Shown one piece after another: positions 19,165 through 64,000 of a DNA stretch of 64,000 nucleotides. The position numbers were made by a program, and so were the translations under genes. Within the stretch, counting starts at the first letter, position 1, and each line of letters opens with the position of its first letter. Location of the stretch: the IMG/VR virus record IMGVR_UViG_3300028883_000036, positions 43,656-107,655 of that record; one strand, written 5' to 3'. Source of the DNA: a virus. The notes under the pieces are model-generated. The model saw nothing but the letters and a program-made list of their open reading frames with translations. It searched no databases and was not told the origin of the DNA.

Positions 19165-21300
19165 TTATTCAATTACATCAAAATCTTCTATTGTAGCATT
19201 TAAATTATTATTAGCAGAATTATTATTTAAACCCCACACTTGAATATATCGTTGATTAGTAGCTGTCATATCTGCCGCATATTTAATATCTACATCTTTA
19301 ACTGTAACTCCTTCAAATGATCCTGTTTTTACAGTACCAGTTAATCTACCATAAGCAGGTGAACCACCATCATGATCAAAAAATAAACTAACATAATATT
19401 TTGTTCCTACAGAATATGCATATGAAGTTGATACCCCACCACCAGAAGAAGGATAATTTAATCTAATATTAAGATTACTACTTAAAATAGAAACTTCAAC
19501 ACCTGCAAAACCACCACTACCATGATAATTATTATATCCCCCTATATTAGTCGTTACACCAGCTAAAACACAAGCTAAAGTACCATCAACAGAAGATATT
19601 GTAAAAGAAAATTTTAATGTAAAATCACCAGTAAAATAACCTGCCCCTTTATCTAAATAAGCATATCCTTCACCTAAAGCATCAGCATCAGGACCAATAG
19701 TTGCTGTAGTAGATGTTAAAGATAATAAATTATTACTATCAACTTCTGTAAATGTAGTAAAATCAAGTCCAGCAGCAGCACTTGCACTTTCAGAGCTTGA
19801 ACTTGTAGAGCTTGAAGAACTTTCAGAGCTTGAAGATTTAGAGCTTGAAGATTTAGAGCTTGAACTTGAACTTCCAGAGCTTGAACTTGAAGATTCAGAG
19901 CTTGAACTTGAAGATTTAGAGCTTGAAGAACTTGAGCTTGAAGAACTATTTATACCATAAAGTTCAATTTCACCTATTTTAATTCCACTTGTTCCAGGTG
20001 TTAAAGTAGCAACATGTTCTATATCATCATATCTTACTTTAAACCATGTTCCACTTACAGCAACCCCACAAGTTTGATTAACTGGTATTGATCCTGTTGT
20101 TGCAAGAGATACATGAAATCCCCATTGTCCTTCTGCATATTGATGTAATGTTGGATTAACAACTGTTTTAACAAGAGTCCAATTAGAATTATTATCTGAA
20201 GTATAAAATTCAAATGTTCCTGCACTTGGAACCCATGCAGAAGGAATTAATGAATCATTTGTATTACCATAAACTTTAACTTTTGTTAGAGCTTGTTGTG
20301 AACCTAATTCTATACCATATGAATATTCATCTCTCCAATAAGTTCCAAAATCAATATATCTATTTTTATCTACTAATTTGCTTTCTTCAGTAGAAAAACT
20401 AGCTGAAGTTGGTGTACTATCAGGTTCTAATTTATATCCTTTCCATTCAGTAATTGGTTCACCTTTCAAACTACAAGAACTTGAACTACTACTTTTAGAG
20501 CTTGAACTTGAACTCAATGAACTTGAAGAAGAACTTGAACTCAATGAGCTTGAAGAAGAACTTGAACTCAATGAGCTTGAAGAAGAACTGGATGAACTTG
20601 ATATACTGATTGAATTACTGCTTGAGCTTGAGCTTGAACTCAATGAGCTTGAACTCAATGAGCTTGAACTGCTTGATTTTGAAGAAGAACTTTCAGATAA
20701 ACTTATAGAACTTGAGCTTGAAGAAGAACTACTAGCACATAAATAATCACCACTATTTAAAATAAAATTATCAAAATATGCAGTAATATTAGGTTTAACT
20801 GTCCAATTTTGTAAATAAATTCTAAATTCTACAGCATCCCTACCAATATCATTAGATTCTCCTACTTGGGACCAATTAAGACTTAAATTTTTATAATATC
20901 CTTGCCATGTTTTACCAATTCTTGTAATTCTAAATGCACCAGATGGAGCATTATTAGAAACAGCAGTTTGAGTTAAACTACCATCAATATATGATTGTTC
21001 AATATATGTAGTATTAGCACCACTTTGATAAATTCTTAATCTATTATCATCATCCCCGATGTATCTTGCTTCAAGAAATACTCCCCATCCACCAATTCCA
21101 TTATTTGCAGAAGGAGAAATATCCCAATCAACTTGAACATCAAAATCTCCACCTGAAATAATAGTTGCTCTATGTTGTAATAAAGAAGTATTTTTAGTAA
21201 AATTAACTTTGACAGTCAAATTATCACTACCACTAATAGCAGGAGTCCCTGCCGCCCCTTCTAATTTTACCCATCTATGTACATTAGGTTGTTGTGCCAT
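19165..21300 (-). CDS. Serine-rich multi-domain tail fibre/adhesin A
   Basis: A 711-residue surface protein of three globular domains joined by two poly-serine linkers. Domain 1 (~1-185) is a beta-sandwich of a concanavalin/LamG-like kind, sharing DNRLRIY, TTYIE, GKTWQGYYKN and AYFDNF with a domain in the next gene. Linker 1 (~190-275) is SSSSS with occasional Leu, Lys or Ile. Domain 2 (~280-455) looks like a galactose-binding/F5-8 type C fold (YGIELGSQQALTKVKVYG... IGEIELYG). Linker 2 (~456-510) leads to a third beta-sandwich domain. It is probably a carbohydrate-binding tail appendage. Confidence 0.8.
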   Translation of the reverse strand: MAQQPNVHRWVKLEGAAGTPAISGSDNLTVKVNFTKNTSLLQHRATIISGGDFDVQVDWDISPSANNGIGGWGVFLEARYIGDDDNRLRIYQSGANTTYIEQSYIDGSLTQTAVSNNAPSGAFRITRIGKTWQGYYKNLSLNWSQVGESNDIGRDAVEFRIYLQNWTVKPNITAYFDNFILNSGDYLCASSSSSSSSSISLSESSSSKSSSSSSLSSSSLSSSSSSSSNSISISSSSSSSSSSLSSSSSSSSLSSSSSSSSLSSSSSSKSSSSSSCSLKGEPITEWKGYKLEPDSTPTSASFSTEESKLVDKNRYIDFGTYWRDEYSYGIELGSQQALTKVKVYGNTNDSLIPSAWVPSAGTFEFYTSDNNSNWTLVKTVVNPTLHQYAEGQWGFHVSLATTGSIPVNQTCGVAVSGTWFKVRYDDIEHVATLTPGTSGIKIGEIELYGINSSSSSSSSSSKSSSSSSESSSSSSGSSSSSSKSSSSKSSSSESSSSSTSSSSESASAAAGLDFTTFTEVDSNNLLSLTSTTATIGPDADALGEGYAYLDKGAGYFTGDFTLKFSFTISSVDGTLACVLAGVTTNIGGYNNYHGSGGFAGVEVSILSSNLNIRLNYPSSGGGVSTSYAYSVGTKYYVSLFFDHDGGSPAYGRLTGTVKTGSFEGVTVKDVDIKYAADMTATNQRYIQVWGLNNNSANNNLNATIEDFDVIE

Positions 21301-21310
21301 TTTTTATTCC

Positions 21311-23482
21311 TTATCCACTCTCACTACTTGAACTAACTGAACTACTACTTGAACTTATAAAATAATCATTTATTCCAACATAACATGAAAATGATTCGCT
21401 TGAACTTTCAGAGCTTGAACTTTCAGAGCTTGAACTTTCAGAGCTTGAACTTTCAGAGCTTGAACTTTCAGAGCTTGAACTTTCAGAGCTTGAACTTTCA
21501 GAGCTTAAACTACTCAAACTGCTTGAACTTATAGAGCTACTACTTGAACTTATAGAGCTACTACTTGAACTTATAGAGCTACTACTTGAACTTATAGAAC
21601 TTGAGCTACTACTGCTTGAGCTACTTGAACTTGCTACACATGCCCAATTTCCAGAAACAAGAGTAAAATTATCAAATTCTCCATATGCATATGGTTTGTT
21701 AGTATAATTTTTAACATAAAGACCAAATTCTGTATCAATATTAGAACCAATATTAGTTCCACTTGCTATTTGTGACCATGTTCCACCAGTATTTCTATAA
21801 TATCCTTGCCATTGATTTCCTGTTCTTGCTATTCTAAATCCCCCACTTGTTTGAGTAGTACCAACAGCAGTATTTGTTACAACAACACCATTTTTATAAG
21901 TTGTTTCTACATAAGTTGTATTATGACCTTGAATATAAATTCTTAATCTATTATCATCATTATCTATTTCTCTAGCAACAAGTTCTAATATCCATCCAGC
22001 AGCAGACGGAGCAGGATTTTCAAGATATGGATTACTTGCTGATGGTAGATACCAATCTACTTGAGCATCAAAATCACTTCCTGATACAACATACCATCTA
22101 GAAATAACACCACTTATATTATTATCAAAATCTACTGATGCTTTTAATCTATTTCCACTTATAGTAGGTGAACTCATAACAATACCACTTCCACTTGGAT
22201 TACTTATAGTATAATCCCATTTATGTACATCTGGATCACTACCATCTATACCATCAAAATTATCATTTGGTGATACAAAACATGAACTACTTGAACTCTT
22301 TGAACTTGAACTTACAGAGCTACTAGATATAGAATCTGAACTACTGCTTATAGAACTTGAGCTTGAACTTACAGAACTTGAACTCAATGAACTTGAAGAA
22401 GAACTTACAGAGCTTGAAGAAGAAGAACTTTCAGAACTGCTTGAGCTTGAGCTTGATTCACTTGAGCTTGAAATTGAACTACTTGATTCTGAAGAAGAAC
22501 TCAAAGAACTTGAACTTTCAGAACTACTTGAAACTGAAGTTGAAGAACTTGATTCTGAAGAAGAAGAACTTGATTCTGAAGAAGAACTCAATGAACTTGA
22601 AGAAGAACTTGAAGAAGAACTTGAACTCAATGAGCTTGAAGAAGAACTTGAACTTGAACTCAATGAGCTTGAACTGCTTGAACTGAAAGAAACAGAACTA
22701 CTTGATTTTGAAGAAGAACTCACAGAAACAGAACTACTTGATTCAGAAATTGAACTTGAAGAACTTGTAGAACTTGAGCTTGAACTTATACTCAATGAAA
22801 ATGATTCACTTGAACTAGAAGAACTTTCAGAACTGCTTGAACTTTCAGAACTGCTTGAGCTTGAGCTTGATTCACTTGAACTTGAAATTGAACTGCTAGA
22901 TAGAGAACTTGAACTACTGCTTGAACTTGAACTAGAAGAACTTGAGCTTGAGCTTGAGCTTGAAGATGAAGAAATAAATCTTTCTTCAAGTAAATCTTGT
23001 AATTCAATTAAACAACTATTTTTATATTTTCTTTTTGCTCTTGCATCAGGACCAGGATCAGTTTGCACAACAATAGTACAATTAATAGGTTCATTTAAAA
23101 ATACAACAGCATTTCTACTACTACCAAAATAAATTCTTTTAAATTTAAATTCTTCTCTTGTTTCTGTTTTATATCCTGTTATCTGAACATATATTTGGTC
23201 TAAATAATGTGGTACTTCAATCCAATAAGTATCTCCTGATGGTGTCCAATCAGTTATAGTAAAACTAAAATGTTTATAAAAAACACCATCACCTGAAAAT
23301 ACAGGAAAAGCAGCATCTTTTAATGAATCAAATAAAGTAAATAATTGATTATTAGATATTACTTTATTAAATCTATTATTTGAATCATTTAATACAGCAA
23401 TATCCATTCCATGAGCACAACCGAATATATCACTTGAGCTTGAACTAGATGTTGATGATGATGAAGAACTTGAACTTGCCAT
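21311..23482 (-). CDS. Serine-rich multi-domain tail fibre/adhesin B
   Basis: 723 residues: a Ser-rich start, an N-terminal domain (~18-170) with KVISNNQLF as found in the neighbouring tail genes, a ~230-residue poly-Ser linker broken by Glu, Leu, Val, Ile and Lys, a beta-sandwich domain (~410-620) homologous to domain 1 of adhesin A (DNRLRIYI, TTYVETTY, QWQGYYRN, GEFDNF), and a second poly-Ser tract before a 20-residue end. The linker is repetitive at DNA level. It is probably attached to the baseplate through the N-terminal domain. Confidence 0.8.
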   Translation of the reverse strand: MASSSSSSSSTSSSSSSDIFGCAHGMDIAVLNDSNNRFNKVISNNQLFTLFDSLKDAAFPVFSGDGVFYKHFSFTITDWTPSGDTYWIEVPHYLDQIYVQITGYKTETREEFKFKRIYFGSSRNAVVFLNEPINCTIVVQTDPGPDARAKRKYKNSCLIELQDLLEERFISSSSSSSSSSSSSSSSSSSSSSSLSSSSISSSSESSSSSSSSESSSSSESSSSSSESFSLSISSSSSSTSSSSSISESSSSVSVSSSSKSSSSVSFSSSSSSSLSSSSSSSSSSLSSSSSSSSSSSSLSSSSESSSSSSESSSSTSVSSSSESSSSLSSSSESSSSISSSSESSSSSSSSESSSSSSSVSSSSSSLSSSSVSSSSSSISSSSDSISSSSVSSSSKSSSSSCFVSPNDNFDGIDGSDPDVHKWDYTISNPSGSGIVMSSPTISGNRLKASVDFDNNISGVISRWYVVSGSDFDAQVDWYLPSASNPYLENPAPSAAGWILELVAREIDNDDNRLRIYIQGHNTTYVETTYKNGVVVTNTAVGTTQTSGGFRIARTGNQWQGYYRNTGGTWSQIASGTNIGSNIDTEFGLYVKNYTNKPYAYGEFDNFTLVSGNWACVASSSSSSSSSSSSISSSSSSISSSSSSISSSSSSISSSSLSSLSSESSSSESSSSESSSSESSSSESSSSESSSSESSSESFSCYVGINDYFISSSSSSVSSSSESG
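21406..21510 (-). repeat. 15-bp tandem repeat coding SSSES in adhesin B
   Basis: Seven head-to-tail copies of a 15-base unit (plus strand tttcagagcttgaac), the last copy with one change. Each encodes five residues of the Ser/Glu linker. Next to it (about 21530-21600) are four copies of a 21-base unit coding Ser-Ile-Ser5. The regularity suggests length change by slippage or recombination. Confidence 0.9.
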
Positions 23483-23499
23483 TTAAATATTCCTTATCT

Positions 23500-24030
23500 T
23501 TATGGTGCAACACTTTCACTACTTGAACTTTCACTTGAAGATGAAGATGAAGATGAAAGTGAAGAAGAACTTATAGAACTTGAACTACTACTACTTGACC
23601 CACATCTAATAGTTGACCCAAAATCAAAATCAACGTGAGTATTTACTTTCCATCCCATAAAATTACTCATTGCCCTATTTAATCTTACAAGATTTCCAGA
23701 AACATTTACTGATTCATATTCACCAAATAAATGATCCCCCCTAATAATTCCACTTTTATCATTTTTAGACCAACTAATTATATATTGAGTATCCCATGTA
23801 TATCCTTGAGTAGAAGATCTAATATTATCTTTTACAAAAAAACTTAAAATTCCTTCTGAATTTGTTGTTAATGGTTGTGTTAATAAATTTCCATTTTTAT
23901 TAAATACATATATTTGAGTTAATGGATTATTATATTCATATAACCAAACAGAAGCAGAAGGAACAGGTATACCATCATCGTCTAATATCTTATACCAAAT
24001 ATGATTTAAAAATCCTCTAACCATATACAC
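23500..24030 (-). CDS. Small tail protein with Ser-rich C-terminus
   Basis: A 176-residue protein. Residues 1-~140 form a beta-rich domain (WYKILDDDGIPVPSASVWLYEY... NSEGILSFFV) related to the N-terminal domains of the two genes upstream: the same 'x-W-x-Y-x-x-D-x-x-G-x-P-x-x-x-A' opening, resembling carboxypeptidase-regulatory/Ig-like domains. The remaining ~35 residues are poly-Ser with Glu. It overlaps the upstream gene by 14 bases. It is probably a baseplate-proximal adaptor with a flexible tail. Confidence 0.7.
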   Translation of the reverse strand: MYMVRGFLNHIWYKILDDDGIPVPSASVWLYEYNNPLTQIYVFNKNGNLLTQPLTTNSEGILSFFVKDNIRSSTQGYTWDTQYIISWSKNDKSGIIRGDHLFGEYESVNVSGNLVRLNRAMSNFMGWKVNTHVDFDFGSTIRCGSSSSSSSSISSSSLSSSSSSSSESSSSESVAP

Positions 24031-24823
24031 CTACTCTTACTTTAATATTATCAACTAACCAAATTCTTATAGTATTAGAAGTAATAGATTTTACAGTATC
24101 AGGTATTACAACATAATCATTATTTGCAAGAATACTTACTTTTGCAACTACAACAATTGGATATGCATTATTCAAACCATGTGTTATATCTGCATAGTAT
24201 CTACCACCACTTACACTCCAACTTGATACTTCTTCAGAATAAAATCTTGCAGCAGAAATATCTATAGATGTAGTAGATGCTGTTTGTGCTATTTGATACA
24301 TCTGATACCCTAATTTATTACTAATTACTTTATTTACAGTTTCATTCAAATTAAATAAATCAACAGGATGTAAATCATGAGGGCTTGCTGAAGGAACTAC
24401 TGAATCAACATGCATATCCCATTTATATCCTTGTTTATTTGAAATAACTTTATCTTTATCTTTATTACTTGGAATGCCTTTTATACTATCTGTTGTATCA
24501 ATAGGTCGTACAGGAGTAAAAACATAAAAATTATCAATTTCTTCTTCTATACCATCAATATTATTTTGCCAAACTATTTTAAACTGTTGGTCTACATTAT
24601 ACCCACCTTCTATTTCCCATGTATCACCTACCCAAAACTGAACAAATCCATATTTATTTGTTTTTAAATTTTCTGTAGATGATTTAGTTACAGAACCAAA
24701 TGTAGCATTTAAATAAATATCAGCTTCATTTAATGTACCTGCAAGATAAACTCTTACCTCTGCATCCTGTAGAGGATTTCCTTGTCTATCTATCATATAT
24801 TGCCAATAATCTATTCTTGCCAT
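24017..24823 (-). CDS. Tail/baseplate adaptor protein, paralogue
   Basis: 268 residues. The N-terminal domain opens YWQYMIDRQGNPLQDAEVRVYLAG and continues with TNKYGFVQFWVGD; the central part has KVISNKQGYKWDMHVDSVVPSASPHDLHPVD, closely matched in the next gene upstream. It is the only member of this local family with no poly-Ser tract. It is likely to be an attachment domain for fibres at the baseplate. Confidence 0.7.
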   Translation of the reverse strand: MARIDYWQYMIDRQGNPLQDAEVRVYLAGTLNEADIYLNATFGSVTKSSTENLKTNKYGFVQFWVGDTWEIEGGYNVDQQFKIVWQNNIDGIEEEIDNFYVFTPVRPIDTTDSIKGIPSNKDKDKVISNKQGYKWDMHVDSVVPSASPHDLHPVDLFNLNETVNKVISNKLGYQMYQIAQTASTTSIDISAARFYSEEVSSWSVSGGRYYADITHGLNNAYPIVVVAKVSILANNDYVVIPDTVKSITSNTIRIWLVDNIKVRVGVYG

Positions 24824-24842
24824 ATTTTACCTAATCCTTCAT

Positions 24843-25721
24843 TTAAGTAGTACTTGAACTTGAACTTGAAGTTGAACTACTAGAACTTGAACTACCTTGA
24901 ACATTTACATTAACATTTACTTCATAATCCATAAATATTCTTGTTGCTGTAGAATTTAAATGTCTTATTCTTTTTGGTACTATTTCTTTTTTATCATTTA
25001 TTTTTGCAAGTCTAACTATTGTAGTTTTACCAATAATATTAGAATGAGATACATCTTTATAAAATATATCACCTGAAGGAGTCCATGTTGTTACTTCTTC
25101 TTGATGCTCATTAACCCCACCATATTCTAAAGATTCAGATCCTTCAGCAGTACACCATGTAATAATATCATAAAGCATTTTATTACTTACAACTTTATTA
25201 TATTTATTATCATCACATCCACTACTATAATCTACTGGATAAATATCATGTGGACTTGCTGATGGAACTACTGCATTAACATGTGACCACCATTTATTTC
25301 CATAAAAATCAGATATGAATTTATTTTTATCAGATACATCTGCACCTATATTTGTATTTTCCCATGAAAAAGCATTAGGCCAAGGATTTATATTTTGAAT
25401 AACTCCTGGTGCTATACCTGCTTTATACCATTCTAATCTAAATTCTTGAGTATATGGATACCCACCATCTTCCCATTCATTAGCTAACCAAAATTCGAAA
25501 AACCCATTACTATCTGTTTGAATTTCAGCTACACTACTTGTAGTATATGAAGAACCAGTTTCAGTTAAATATATCCTTGCTTCTGTAGTAGGATCATCAT
25601 TTAAATATAAATTAATATAAACATCAGAAATTGGAACTCCTTCTTCATTTAAAACATAATGCCAAAAATGAATTCTAGATAAACTAAAATACGATGATGA
25701 AGAAGAACTTGAACTTGCCAT
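24843..25721 (-). CDS. Tail/baseplate adaptor protein with Ser-rich ends
   Basis: 292 residues. A short Ser run follows the start, then the same domain as in the downstream paralogue (IHFWHYVLNEEGVPISDVYINLYL; NGFFEFWLANEWEDGG; VNAVVPSASPHDIYPVD). A Ser-rich tail of ~20 residues ends the protein. Both Ser tracts differ from the paralogue while the folded core is conserved, so linkers seem to be gained and lost independently. Confidence 0.7.
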   Translation of the reverse strand: MASSSSSSSSYFSLSRIHFWHYVLNEEGVPISDVYINLYLNDDPTTEARIYLTETGSSYTTSSVAEIQTDSNGFFEFWLANEWEDGGYPYTQEFRLEWYKAGIAPGVIQNINPWPNAFSWENTNIGADVSDKNKFISDFYGNKWWSHVNAVVPSASPHDIYPVDYSSGCDDNKYNKVVSNKMLYDIITWCTAEGSESLEYGGVNEHQEEVTTWTPSGDIFYKDVSHSNIIGKTTIVRLAKINDKKEIVPKRIRHLNSTATRIFMDYEVNVNVNVQGSSSSSSSTSSSSSSTT

Positions 25722-41863: not shown

Positions 41864-42844
41864 TTATGGATTAGCATATGGAGAAGATGGTGGTGTAAAA
41901 TCTACTCCTTGATATGCTGCATAATTTAATATTCTAAGTTCATCAATATACATATCTATATTATTACTTCCATCACCATCAAATCCAATTCTTAATGGAT
42001 CTCCATTATCATATATCGTTCCAGAAAATGCTACAGGTGAATTATCTTTTGTTCCATTCCAATAGAAATATAAATTATTTCCATATCTCTCAAAAGCAAA
42101 ATGTCTCCATGATGCTGCTCCAATATAATATGAACCACCAACATGAGTCCATGCACCAGCACCAGCAGTAGCTACAGCAAATGTTGGTCTTCCTGCTCCT
42201 TGTGTTTGAAGTTTTCCCCAACGATAAGAATTAGCAGTAATACTTTTACTTATAAAATGAGAATCACCAGGATAATCTACAAGACGCATCCAGCAATCAA
42301 TAGTAAAATCTTTATCACCAAAAGCAAGTACTGAATGATGAGCAACATCAAGCCAAGTATTTGCTGCTACATGACATGAATAACTTCCAAATTTAGACGT
42401 TCCAGACCTTACAGCACCATTTAAAGTTACACTATGACTATAATTTGATGAATCAGTCAATCCTACATCATCCATATGCATTAAAAGAATTATTTGTTCT
42501 GTTGCACTCTCACTACTTGAAGAACTTTTACTACTTGAGCTTGAAGATTCAGAGCTTGAACTTATAGAACTGCTACTTTCAGAGCTTGAACTTATAGAAC
42601 TGCTACTTTCAGAGCTTGAACTTGAAGATTCAGAGCTTGAACTTATAGAACTGCTACTTTCAGAGCTTGAACTTATAGAACTGCTACTTTCAGAGCTTGA
42701 ACTTATAGAACTACTACTTTCAGAGCTTGAACTTATAGAACTGCTACTTTCAGAGCTTGAACTTATAGAACTACTACTTGAACTACTTGAAGATGATCTT
42801 ATAGTAATATAAAAAGCTAAATTTTGTTGTGATTTAAAACTCAT
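41864..42844 (-). CDS. Serine-rich fibre with C-terminal LamG/concanavalin domain
   Basis: 326 residues. A 16-residue N-terminal strand (SFKSQQNLAFYITIR) leads to ~100 residues of SSSSSES/SSSSSIS repeats, then a LamG-like jellyroll (DKDFTIDCWMRL; GDSHFISKS; YIDELRILNYAAY). LamG domains bind carbohydrates or proteins. The DNA of the linker is a tandem array of 30-base units. Confidence 0.85.
   Translation of the reverse strand: MSFKSQQNLAFYITIRSSSSSSSSSSISSSSESSSSISSSSESSSSISSSSESSSSISSSSESSSSISSSSESSSSSSESSSSISSSSESSSSISSSSESSSSSSKSSSSSESATEQIILLMHMDDVGLTDSSNYSHSVTLNGAVRSGTSKFGSYSCHVAANTWLDVAHHSVLAFGDKDFTIDCWMRLVDYPGDSHFISKSITANSYRWGKLQTQGAGRPTFAVATAGAGAWTHVGGSYYIGAASWRHFAFERYGNNLYFYWNGTKDNSPVAFSGTIYDNGDPLRIGFDGDGSNNIDMYIDELRILNYAAYQGVDFTPPSSPYANP
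42551..42781 (-). repeat. 30-bp tandem repeat array coding the Ser linker of the LamG fibre
   Basis: About eight copies of a 30-base unit (plus strand begins agagcttgaacttatag), with one shortened unit around 42611-42631. Each codes ten residues of Ser with one Ile and one Glu. Copy-to-copy identity is high, suggesting recent expansion. Confidence 0.9.
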
Positions 42845-53670: not shown

Positions 53671-53746
53671 TGGTAGGGGGGGTGGGATTCGAACCCACAC
53701 TGGAAGGATTTTAAGTCCTTTGACTCTGCCGTTGGCCTACCCCCCC
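53671..53746 (-). tRNA. tRNA with Leu anticodon UAA, class I (short variable arm)
   Basis: A 76-base cloverleaf with encoded CCA. Acceptor GGGGGGG/CCCCCCT (G1-U72 pair), D-arm GGCC...AGTC with AACGG loop, anticodon stem AAGGA/TCCTT with loop CTTAAAA (anticodon TAA, codon UUA), 5-base variable region, T-stem GTGGG/CCCAC with TTCGAAT. Discriminator A. Bacterial tRNA-Leu normally has a long variable arm; this does not. Confidence 0.88.
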
Positions 53747-53778
53747 ATTATACTTTTCTGATATATAACATTTTTAAT

Positions 53779-53857
53779 TGGTAGGGATAGAAGGATTCGA
53801 ACCTTCAGATTCTTGATTTTGAATCAAGTGCCTATACCAAAATTCGGCTATATCCCC
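53779..53857 (-). tRNA. tRNA with Leu anticodon CAA, class I (short variable arm)
   Basis: A 79-base cloverleaf with encoded CCA. Acceptor GGGGATA/TATCCCT, D-arm GCC...GGC with an unusually long 13-base loop, anticodon stem CTTGA/TCAAG with loop TTCAAAA (anticodon CAA, codon UUG), 5-base variable region, T-stem GAAGG/CCTTC. Discriminator A. Short variable arm as in its two neighbours. Confidence 0.85.
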
Positions 53858-53860
53858 TTG

Positions 53861-53936
53861 TGGTAGGGATGGGTGGATTCGAACCACCACTGAATAGCTT
53901 CTAAGACTATTGACTCTGCCGTTGGTCTACATCCCC
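53861..53936 (-). tRNA. tRNA with Leu anticodon UAG, class I (short variable arm)
   Basis: A 76-base cloverleaf with encoded CCA, three bases from the next tRNA. Acceptor GGGGATG/CATCCCT, D-loop and variable region very like the first tRNA (CCAACGGCAGAGTCA; CAGT), anticodon stem ATAGT/GCTAT with loop CTTAGAA (anticodon TAG, codon CUA), T-stem GGTGG/CCACC. Discriminator A. It looks like a duplicate of the UAA tRNA with a changed anticodon. Confidence 0.86.
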
Positions 53937-60549: not shown

Positions 60550-61056
60550 TTATTTTTTATTACCTTTTCTCCAAGAAGTCGAACCTTTAGCAGTATCTAT
60601 AAGCCTTGCACAAAACCCTTTAGCTTTATCCTCATCCCATCCTGATTTGCCTTTCATTCTTATCACACATTTATCAAAAAATCCATGTTCTTTAGGATCT
60701 GCACCAATTGTTTTACCAAATTTTTCTACTGATTTTTTCCCCCATCCAGCAGCTTCAATTGCTTTTTCATTCAACTCATCATCATTAAGAAATTCATTAG
60801 TTTCACGAATAAGATTTTCAACTTCCAATTTATCTAAAATATCTAATTCTTCTGATTCAGGAACCATTCTAATAAATCTTGGATTTCTACCCGCTTTTAC
60901 TGCTTTTTTTATTCTTTTTTCAGCTTCTTGTTTTGTATATCTTTTTCCTTTATCATCAAATTTAGCATCATCTAAACTCATCCAATCATGAGTAATACCT
61001 TTTATTTCTACTCTATATTTTTTTTGTTCATTTAAATATTTATCTTCTTTATTCAT
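60550..61056 (-). CDS. Tagged head-type protein (MNKEDKYLNE)
   Basis: 168 residues from the ATG at 61056 (GGGGGA upstream; frame open to 61086). Tag MNKEDKYLNE|Q. The body includes FFDKCVIRMKGKSGWDEDKAKGFCARLIDTAKGSTSWRKG, a Cys-containing phage segment (K-C-x-x-x-x-K ... A-F-C-A-x-L) seen in other head-gene neighbourhoods. A structural or cargo role is likely. Confidence 0.7.
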   Translation of the reverse strand: MNKEDKYLNEQKKYRVEIKGITHDWMSLDDAKFDDKGKRYTKQEAEKRIKKAVKAGRNPRFIRMVPESEELDILDKLEVENLIRETNEFLNDDELNEKAIEAAGWGKKSVEKFGKTIGADPKEHGFFDKCVIRMKGKSGWDEDKAKGFCARLIDTAKGSTSWRKGNKK

Positions 61057-61447
61057 CTTTCCCCCATAGTTCAGGTATATAAGCACCTGATTTTTTATCG
61101 AATTTTAATCCTTTTCTTCCTAATATATTAGTTTCTGTTGGATTATCGAATTCATCTTCTATGGGTTCTTTTCTTGCTAAATCAATAATATCCCTTTTAG
61201 TAGTAAAACCTGTTCTTGTTTGACCAGAACCAATAATATTAGTAGTAGTGTTAGAAACATAAGAACCACCAACTACAGAAGATTCATTTTTTATAGGAAC
61301 ACATACTTTCTTTACTTTATCATATATAGTACCTTTAGGACATTTACCACCAATTACATCTATACTTCCTTTAGCAGTATTAGTAGCTACATCTCCTGCT
61401 ACAGTCATATCAGATATCATAATGTCTAATTTTTTTAATAAGTCCAT
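61049..61447 (-). CDS. Head-type protein with tag-like start (MDLLKKLDIMISD)
   Basis: 132 residues. It starts MDLLKKLDIMISDMTVAGD, related to the gene at 44674, but with I-S-D at the expected site. It contains GGKCPKGTIYDKVKKVCVPI, a short motif also present at the C-terminus of the gene at 62194-62778. The rest is low in complexity (TNIIGSGQTRTGF). Possibly a structural decoration or internal protein. Confidence 0.62.
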   Translation of the reverse strand: MDLLKKLDIMISDMTVAGDVATNTAKGSIDVIGGKCPKGTIYDKVKKVCVPIKNESSVVGGSYVSNTTTNIIGSGQTRTGFTTKRDIIDLARKEPIEDEFDNPTETNILGRKGLKFDKKSGAYIPELWGKDE

Positions 61448-61939: not shown

Positions 61940-62194
61940 CTATGCCTTTACCTTTCTAAATCCCCAATCAAACATTCCAATTTGCATCATCATTTTTTGA
62001 GCATCATTTTTTTTATCAAATTTAACTGTTAATGAATTTTTGGCTTTATCAATAATTTTAAATCCTTTACGAATAGTTTTATTAAGCCAATCTTCTAAAT
62101 GTTTTTGATCATTTTTAGGAACATCCACTTGTAAAGCCATTTCATTCATATCATCTTCTTGTAATATAAAATCAATTTTATCTGTTATGTCCAT
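61940..62194 (-). CDS. Tagged small head-type protein (MDITDKIDFILQE)
   Basis: 84 residues: MDITDKIDFILQE|DDMNEMALQVDVPKND. The body looks like a small alpha/beta domain (HLEDWLNKTIRKGFKIIDKAKNSLTVKFDKKNDAQKMMMQIG). Its ATG overlaps the TAA of the upstream (readthrough) frame as TAATG. Confidence 0.72.
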   Translation of the reverse strand: MDITDKIDFILQEDDMNEMALQVDVPKNDQKHLEDWLNKTIRKGFKIIDKAKNSLTVKFDKKNDAQKMMMQIGMFDWGFRKVKA

Positions 62195-62778
62195 TATTCA
62201 TCCCCCTTTCCTTTTCTCATTCTCTTTTTTTCTCCTGCTCCAACTGGAACACATTTCTTTTGAATAGGTCAGTATTTCTCACCTTCAGGACATTTTTTTT
62301 CATCTTGTTCTAATATATTATGAAATTTAGATTTCTTTTTTATTTCTTCAATCTTTTTTTCAATCTTTTTTTCATTTATTTCTTCTTTTATTTCTTCTTC
62401 TTCCTCATATACACTAGATACAGATATATCTACTTTTGGTATTAAATTAGAAAGTTCTTCTACTATATCTTCTATTTTAGCTTCTACTTTTATTGGATTT
62501 TTAATTTTAATTTTATCTTGCCAAGGAATTAAATATGTATCTATAGCAATCAATTCTAATTTAGCATCTAAAAGACTACCATCTTTTAATTTATTATTTA
62601 TTTTAGATATAGGACTTACTTCAACCACAATATCACCATTATCAATTTTTATAGGAAATCCATATTCCATTCCTTCAACAACAATTCTCATTGATCCTTT
62701 AAGATCTTGTGGTTGTACTCCACTCAAACTTATCTTAAATCTAAGTTTCTTAGATTCATTTATATTTATACTAATCAT
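62194..62778 (-). CDS. Head-associated protein interrupted by an in-frame TGA
   Basis: The main frame runs 62778-62269 (169 residues): MISININESKKLRFKISLSGV, a beta-rich capsid-related domain (EYGFPIKIDNGDIVVEVSPIS; IDTYLIPWQDKIKIKNP), then an acidic/basic coiled coil. It stops at TGA (62269-62271), but the same frame continues 24 codons (PIQKKCVPVGAGEKKRMRKGKG...) to a TAA that overlaps the next ATG. CPEGEKY-stop-PIQKKCVPV reconstitutes the motif CPKGTIYDKVKKVCVPI of the gene at 61049, so the extension was or is coding. TGA acts as a normal stop elsewhere here. Readthrough, mutation or sequencing error are the options. Confidence 0.75.
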
Positions 62779-62993: not shown

Positions 62994-64000
62994 TTAACTA
63001 GAAAATGTTTCTGTTCTTGTTTCAGCAAGTTCATCATCAGAAAGTACTCTATTAAAAACAACAAATTCATCAATTTTTCCATCAAGATGATAATCACCAA
63101 CTAATGTATATCTTCCAACAGTAAAATAAATACCAGGAGTCAATATTGACATTTGATTTGAAAATTGTCCTGATGTATTTATAATATATGAACCAGCAGT
63201 ATCATCCCAAACTTTATATTTATAATCATAAGTATCTCCATCATATGTCACTTCCCAATGATACCATCTACCTGTGGTAACTTGGACTGAAGAATCAAAG
63301 GTTTCAGCACTTCCACCATTATTGTATCCAACAAATAAGAAAGGATAATATGAAGTTGTAACTGCTTTCACACCAATTGCATAAGAACGTTGATTTGTAG
63401 CTGTATTATAAAGGCAAATTAATCCAAGTGTAGCTGTTAACGATTCAAATTTTACCCATCCACAAAAAGTAAAAGTTCTATTTGTAGTTCCTTGTTTACC
63501 AGGAAAATTATCAGACAAATTAACATTTTGTATGGTAAAATATTCTGAATTCTGCTTTTCTAAATCAGCACATGCAGAACCTTCTTTATAATCAACTGTT
63601 TCTGTTCCAACAGTATTTATGTCTTCAAGAGTATTTGTTCCTTTTGAATCAGTAGTTAAAGCACCTGATTCAAAACGCCAAAGTGCAACTGCATCTGTAA
63701 AGATATTTCCGCTTACACTTTCAGAGCTTGAACTTCCAGAGCTTGAACTTGAACTTTTAGAGCTTGAAGAAGAAGAACTTGATTTTGAACTGCTACTGGA
63801 ACTTTTAGAGCTTGAAGAAGAACTTGAACTTTTAGAGCTTGAAGAAGAACTTGAACTTTTAGAGCTTGAAGAAGAACTTGAACTTTTAGAGCTTGAAGAA
63901 GAAGAACTTGATTTTGAACTGCTACTGGAACTTTTAGAGCTTGAAGAAGAACTTGAACTTTTAGAGCTTGAAGAAGAACTTGAACTTTTAGAGCTTGAAG
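62994..64000 (-). CDS. Serine-rich LamG fibre protein, 5' end beyond window
   Basis: The open frame enters from the right edge, so the start is not visible. The first ~95 visible codons are poly-Ser with Lys, Gly and Glu, followed by a LamG-like jellyroll: AVALWRFESGALTTDSKG, FTFCGWVKFESL, GRWYHWEVTYDG and GKIDEFVVFNRVLSDDEL. The TTG-initiated short frame inside it (from 63518) is not a separate gene. It is another probable carbohydrate-binding fibre tip. Confidence 0.85.
   Translation of the reverse strand, partial: SSSKSSSSSSSSKSSSSSSSSKSSSSSSKSSSSSSSSKSSSSSSSSKSSSSSSSSKSSSSSSSSKSSSSSSKSSSSSSSSKSSSSSSGSSSSESVSGNIFTDAVALWRFESGALTTDSKGTNTLEDINTVGTETVDYKEGSACADLEKQNSEYFTIQNVNLSDNFPGKQGTTNRTFTFCGWVKFESLTATLGLICLYNTATNQRSYAIGVKAVTTSYYPFLFVGYNNGGSAETFDSSVQVTTGRWYHWEVTYDGDTYDYKYKVWDDTAGSYIINTSGQFSNQMSILTPGIYFTVGRYTLVGDYHLDGKIDEFVVFNRVLSDDELAETRTETFSS
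63750..64000 (-). repeat. 27-bp tandem repeats coding Ser/Lys linker
   Basis: A run of near-identical 27-base units (plus strand tgaacttttagagcttgaag...), interrupted by a longer variant around 63775-63800 and again at ~63905-63930. Each unit codes Ser8-Lys. The array continues past the window. Confidence 0.88.

Follow-up and report, generated by a model that had tools for sequence, protein, structure and literature searches.

The in-frame UGA met by gene 62269-62778 on the minus strand of the phage sequence analysed here is very probably a selenocysteine (Sec) codon, as judged from this locus and its relatives, with the residue inserted by the machinery of the host. The window, that is, the whole stretch of DNA that was analysed, comprises 64 kb of a 107,655-bp IMG/VR virus record (IMGVR_UViG_3300028883_000036) with T4-like features, which include a gp43-like DNA polymerase, baseplate wedge, hub and tail genes, and an exonuclease. 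That the UGA is recoded follows from the real motif that it interrupts, the coding sequence after it and its conservation in relatives, and Sec is favoured as the residue because of the pairing with cysteine (Cys), the specificity for UGA and a hairpin of the selenocysteine insertion sequence (SECIS) type. From a broader perspective, it is fairly likely that tailed phages, some of them with genomes larger than 200 kb, carry a widespread mobile Sec module with its own SECIS element on many different proteins, with Cys in its place where hosts lack Sec. Such proteins would make up a class of phage selenoproteins not yet described, which may be virion proteins, and would link infection to the selenium status of the host.

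Conservation of the UGA and of the sequence beyond it

The minus-strand frame reads TGT CCT GAA GGT GAG AAA TAC TGA CCT ATT CAA AAG AAA TGT GTT and goes on with CCA GTT GGA GCA GGA GAA AAA AAG AGA ATG AGA AAA GGA AAG GGG GAT GAA TAA TG, so that the open reading frame (ORF) contains CPEGEKY-TGA and then runs PIQKKCVPVGAGEKKRMRKGKGDE to TAA. The initial annotation, made from the letters of the window, had described the stop inside the motif and 24 further codons up to a TAA overlapping the next ATG, which is confirmed; it is also correct that a real motif is interrupted, as the neighbouring gene 61049-61447 does contain CPKGTIYDKVKKVCVPI. An extension of 24 codons is unremarkable by length alone (28 of the 156 ORFs of the genome have one that long), and chance is excluded here because the TGA and the extension are conserved in relatives, not because of the length.

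Neither the window protein nor its neighbour matched any relative in direct database searches, and the related loci L005 and L006 were reached through the exonuclease, located 2.3 kb from the gene. At the same place, L005 carries CPEGQKY-TGA-PIKKQCVPVGDGEKKRMRKGDE-TAA(TG), and identity with the window protein rises from 40% before the TGA to 86% over the 22 codons after it. Within this extension 8 of the 11 base substitutions fall on third codon positions (pS 0.58, pN 0.07), and dN/dS is 0.06 over 22 codons; its last few codons may also contain the ribosome-binding site used by the following gene and are given no weight. In L006 the tail is missing altogether.

Pattern scans of IMG/VR recovered at least 22 distinct sequences, from many metagenomes, that have an in-frame TGA in C-P-x-G-x2-[YFW]-TGA-x5-C-[VI] together with a plausible open frame, and visual inspection separated these members from shadow-frame matches that arose by chance. 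Conservation of the stop in relatives, which the initial annotation had proposed as a check, thus extends from L005 to all 22 distinct sequences. Purifying selection past the UGA is seen in three pairs, with dN/dS values of 0.13 (L147/L140, 142 codons), 0.23 (L161/L132, 158 codons) and 0.29 (L009/L146, 85 codons), and it is close to certain, from such substitution patterns, that the sequence past the UGA is coding. A control scan that covered TAA in place of TGA gave 12 matches, none of them genuine and none with the tail of the motif. Gene 62269 is the sole clear UGA candidate in its genome among the matches listed, the others being mostly shadow frames of real genes. A pattern scan of 84,980 genomes, which allowed Tyr and Phe, not Trp, before the UGA, returned one chance match, and searches of isolates did not find the UGA version in any isolated phage.

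Protein contexts of the motif

The UGA motif occurs in otherwise unrelated phage proteins, some of which have 85-207 codons after the UGA. It is C-terminal on a beta-sandwich protein in the window, L005, L091 and L164; it lies in mid-protein in L009, L146, L211 and L219, where the UGA is followed by up to 96 codons; and in L148, L156, L172 and L204 it stands nine codons before the end. It is found near the N-terminus of a cupin protein in L140 and L147, with up to 207 codons after the UGA and, in L147, a Cupin_2 domain past it (E=5e-15), and near the N-terminus of another protein in L132 and L161, with about 165 codons after the UGA. In these last four members only about 12-22 codons precede the UGA, and most of the product is therefore downstream of it, so that a minor C-terminal extension, as originally envisaged, does not describe the family as a whole. 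The proteins of L141, L147 and L206, which otherwise differ, share a small domain (like KIIKFFKANPNPSDKQVHAFADELGMDPHEFEGHIY) that occurs together with the motif.

The window protein is predicted by AlphaFold2 to consist of an N-terminal beta-sandwich, a low-confidence linker and then CPEGEKY, with a beta-hairpin, predicted with moderate confidence, around the Sec site (pLDDT about 68). The N-terminal domain resembles beta-sandwiches of phage baseplate and connector proteins, with modest TM-scores, and a comparison with PHROG gave no match and no head family, so the earlier suggestion of a head protein is not borne out.

Cysteine in place of the UGA

When any TGN codon was allowed at the site, the matches listed comprised 118 with Cys (TGT 72, TGC 46), six with TGA, which correspond to four distinct sequences, two of them listed twice, and none with TGG. 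The typical Cys form of the motif is CPAGQYYCYTDKKCKPIPKG. Among isolates, the Cys-type query matched phages of Synechococcus and Prochlorococcus, and one cyanophage gene of the Cys form carries the annotation "virion protein". Sec decoding has been reported missing in Cyanobacteria (PMC1794560, PMC9312934).

A SECIS-type hairpin downstream of the UGA

The model of the bacterial SECIS (bSECIS) element describes a loop of 3-9 nt, an upper stem of 4-16 bp and a minimum free energy (MFE) of -7.5 kcal/mol or lower, with a G in the first two loop positions, usually followed by G or U, and a spacing of 16-37 nt between the UGA and the loop (PMC13188914). An automatic search that allowed one mismatch and demanded a loop G, a stem of 5 bp or more and an energy of -3 kcal/mol or lower found a hairpin obeying the loop, stem and spacing rules in 20 of the 22 UGA members; among Cys homologues with a comparable GC content, it found one in 12 of 95 (Fisher p=2e-12, a value that overstates independence because the members are related to one another). 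When the searched region was shifted at least 24 nt downstream, hairpins were present in 0-4 of the 22 members, and in synonymous-codon shuffles of 12 coding members the observed mean was never reached (0/500).

Sequence changes between members also bear on the pairing, in hairpins that were placed one by one. The L009 hairpin is UGUACC-AGUU-GGUACA and that of the window UGUUCC-AGUU-GGAGCA; the changes GTT to GTA and GGA to GGT, both synonymous, swap a U-A pair for A-U, and compensatory changes from U-A to C-G are seen in L169 against L135 and in L161 against L132. In L148, L156, L172 and L204 the hairpin either overlaps the TAG that ends the gene or comes after this codon, and is in part outside the coding sequence. 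A search of the window locus against Rfam gave nothing above threshold.

Proposed mechanism and alternative explanations

In the proposed mechanism, the hairpin about 20 nt downstream of the UGA would act as a bacterial SECIS element, host SelB carrying Sec-tRNA(Sec) would bind it, and Sec would be inserted at the UGA, after which the ribosome would continue to the TAA at 62194-62196. The product would end in a small Cys/Sec module, C-P-x-G-x2-[YFW]-U-x5-C-[VI], and a short supply of Sec would lead to termination at the UGA and a truncated form. A redox switch or a metal-binding site is our guess for the role of the module. A search of 21 phage records for SelB and tRNA-Sec did not find SelB in any of them, nor a tRNA-Sec that scored above the cut-off of its family. 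A phage-encoded tRNA-Sec was considered and rejected, as no RF01852 match reaches the cut-off and the best ones are Leu, Ser, Trp and Tyr tRNAs according to ARAGORN.

Several points weigh against Sec insertion. The MFE is -7.5 kcal/mol or lower in 12 of 16 folded 63-nt regions (-8.3 in the window), the other four are weaker, and the stems are short; the hairpins of L148 and L172 fall short of -3 kcal/mol, and in L141 the choice of hairpin is ambiguous. A covariation count based on a MAFFT alignment across loop lengths was negative, with loop gaps and the 3' arm misplaced, and the compensatory changes therefore rest on the individually placed hairpins. Finally, Cys is not universal at the site: Asp occupies it eight times in the family of gene 61049, being the only other residue among the loci analysed once the TGN restriction was lifted, and the Cys counts, taken among the matches listed, come from a scan that demanded a TGN codon.

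The strongest competitor is programmed readthrough, in which a near-cognate tRNA would insert a standard amino acid (Trp, Arg or Cys) to give a short and a long product. The extension is clearly coding, the base after the UGA is C in nearly all members and a downstream hairpin can stimulate readthrough, all of which would suit this explanation. Against it stand Cys, and no Trp, at the site among the matches listed with TGN allowed, the lack of any genuine UAA member, the fit of the hairpin features to the bSECIS model and a base other than C after the UGA in L148, L156 and L172. Generic readthrough is thus disfavoured relative to Sec insertion and appears unlikely; the initial annotation, which had suggested programmed readthrough in a leaky context, was right about recoding of the UGA, and generic readthrough is not supported, given that the recoding is confined to UGA by the TAA control, pairs with Cys rather than Trp and comes with a SECIS-type hairpin. 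A genetic code altered so that UGA is sense throughout the phage genomes would explain reading through at the module site and is rejected as next to impossible, since UGA is an ordinary stop that ends 14 of the 82 ORFs of the window and terminates genes in the majority of member loci, the L140 gene itself among them, and neither the record of the phage nor the best tRNA-Sec candidates yielded a tRNA with a UCA anticodon. That the stop is a lone nonsense mutation or an error of sequencing or assembly, without an extended product, can likewise be dismissed: the records are metagenome assemblies and L006 lacks the tail, but the same codon recurs in the 22 members, with purifying selection after it.

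Features of the locus and of the phage genome

The features of the locus are collected in Table 1.

Table 1. Features around the proposed Sec codon, in coordinates of the window.
Feature	Position	Strand	Relatives and remarks
Gene body before the UGA, 169 aa	62272..62778	(-)	Homologues L005, L006, L091, L164, L009
In-frame TGA, proposed selenocysteine codon	62269..62271	(-)	Same codon in 22 distinct phage sequences
Motif CPEGEKY-U-PIQKKCVPV spanning the UGA	62242..62292	(-)	IMG/VR pattern scans
24 sense codons after the UGA	62197..62268	(-)	Conserved with L005
TAA, proposed true gene end	62194..62196	(-)	1-base overlap with ATG of gene 61940-62194
SECIS-type hairpin UGUUCC-AGUU-GGAGCA	62236..62251	(-)	Loop 23 nt after the UGA
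Neighbouring gene, related motif CPKGTIYDKVKKVCVPI, Asp at the UGA position	61049..61447	(-)	L034 relative has Cys there

Many small proteins encoded in the window between 36274 and 50579 share similar N-terminal peptides (MNLIDKYLxE, MDLIEKYIGEA, MRLTRYLNEA, MDITEKID), which we take to be reminiscent of T4-type capsid-targeting peptides. The sequence directly before several CPxG motifs (KFSIMLEE, FDLFLTEE) resembles them. Long serine-rich stretches (SSSSKSSSSSS) occur in several genes (window 63713-64000, 19165-25721 and 41864-42844), where they form the beginning of what are probably virion or fibre proteins.

The phage also carries a tRNA with anticodon CTA and an encoded CCA end (L003 3421-3496 (+); 23421-23496 in its own record), called tRNA-Pyl by ARAGORN, which has the look of an amber suppressor, even though 19 of the 82 window ORFs end with TAG. 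Three different tRNA-Leu genes (TAA, CAA, TAG) lie in a row at 53671-53936 (-) of the window, and two or three tRNA-Leu genes are present in the related phages L189, L193 and L194 as well.

Implications and comparison with known systems

No report of a phage selenoprotein was found in the open-access literature, a search outside which many subscription papers and preprints fall, and two reviews of prokaryotic selenoproteins do not mention phages (PMC13188914, PMC9312934). If Sec insertion is true, these phage genes are annotated in truncated or split form by standard gene callers, the fitness of the phages could hinge on the selenium and SelB of the host, and the exchange of Cys and Sec would offer a sequence clue to phages that infect Sec-using hosts. 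The hairpins would also be small SECIS elements of natural origin that lend themselves to study, and some of them lie at or past the stop codon of their gene.

Bacterial selenoprotein genes with a bSECIS element, such as those of the E. coli formate dehydrogenases, share with the phage genes the in-frame UGA, the Cys homologues and a hairpin just downstream in the coding region, with a G in the loop and a spacing of 16-37 nt (PMC13188914). The phage genes differ from them in being carried by phages, in matching no known selenoprotein enzyme, in their short stems and, in L148, L156 and L172, in a hairpin that overlaps or follows the gene's own stop. Known viral selenoproteins are the poxvirus glutathione peroxidases of molluscum contagiosum virus and fowlpox virus (PMC8310308), which are likewise virus-encoded but belong to eukaryotic viruses and are captured cellular enzymes with a eukaryotic SECIS. 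In huge wastewater phages tRNA-Sec genes have been annotated and no selenoprotein reported (PMC10747093); they too suggest Sec use by phages, whereas here there are candidate proteins and no tRNA-Sec above the cut-off. The cyanophage proteins with the Cys form of the motif (PHROG 30733) have the same motif with Cys for the UGA and usually no hairpin. The coat protein gene of the RNA phage Q-beta, also cited in PMC8310308, is an example of UGA readthrough in a phage structural gene; there the readthrough is generic, in contrast to the pairing with Cys and the SECIS-type hairpin that mark the UGA here.
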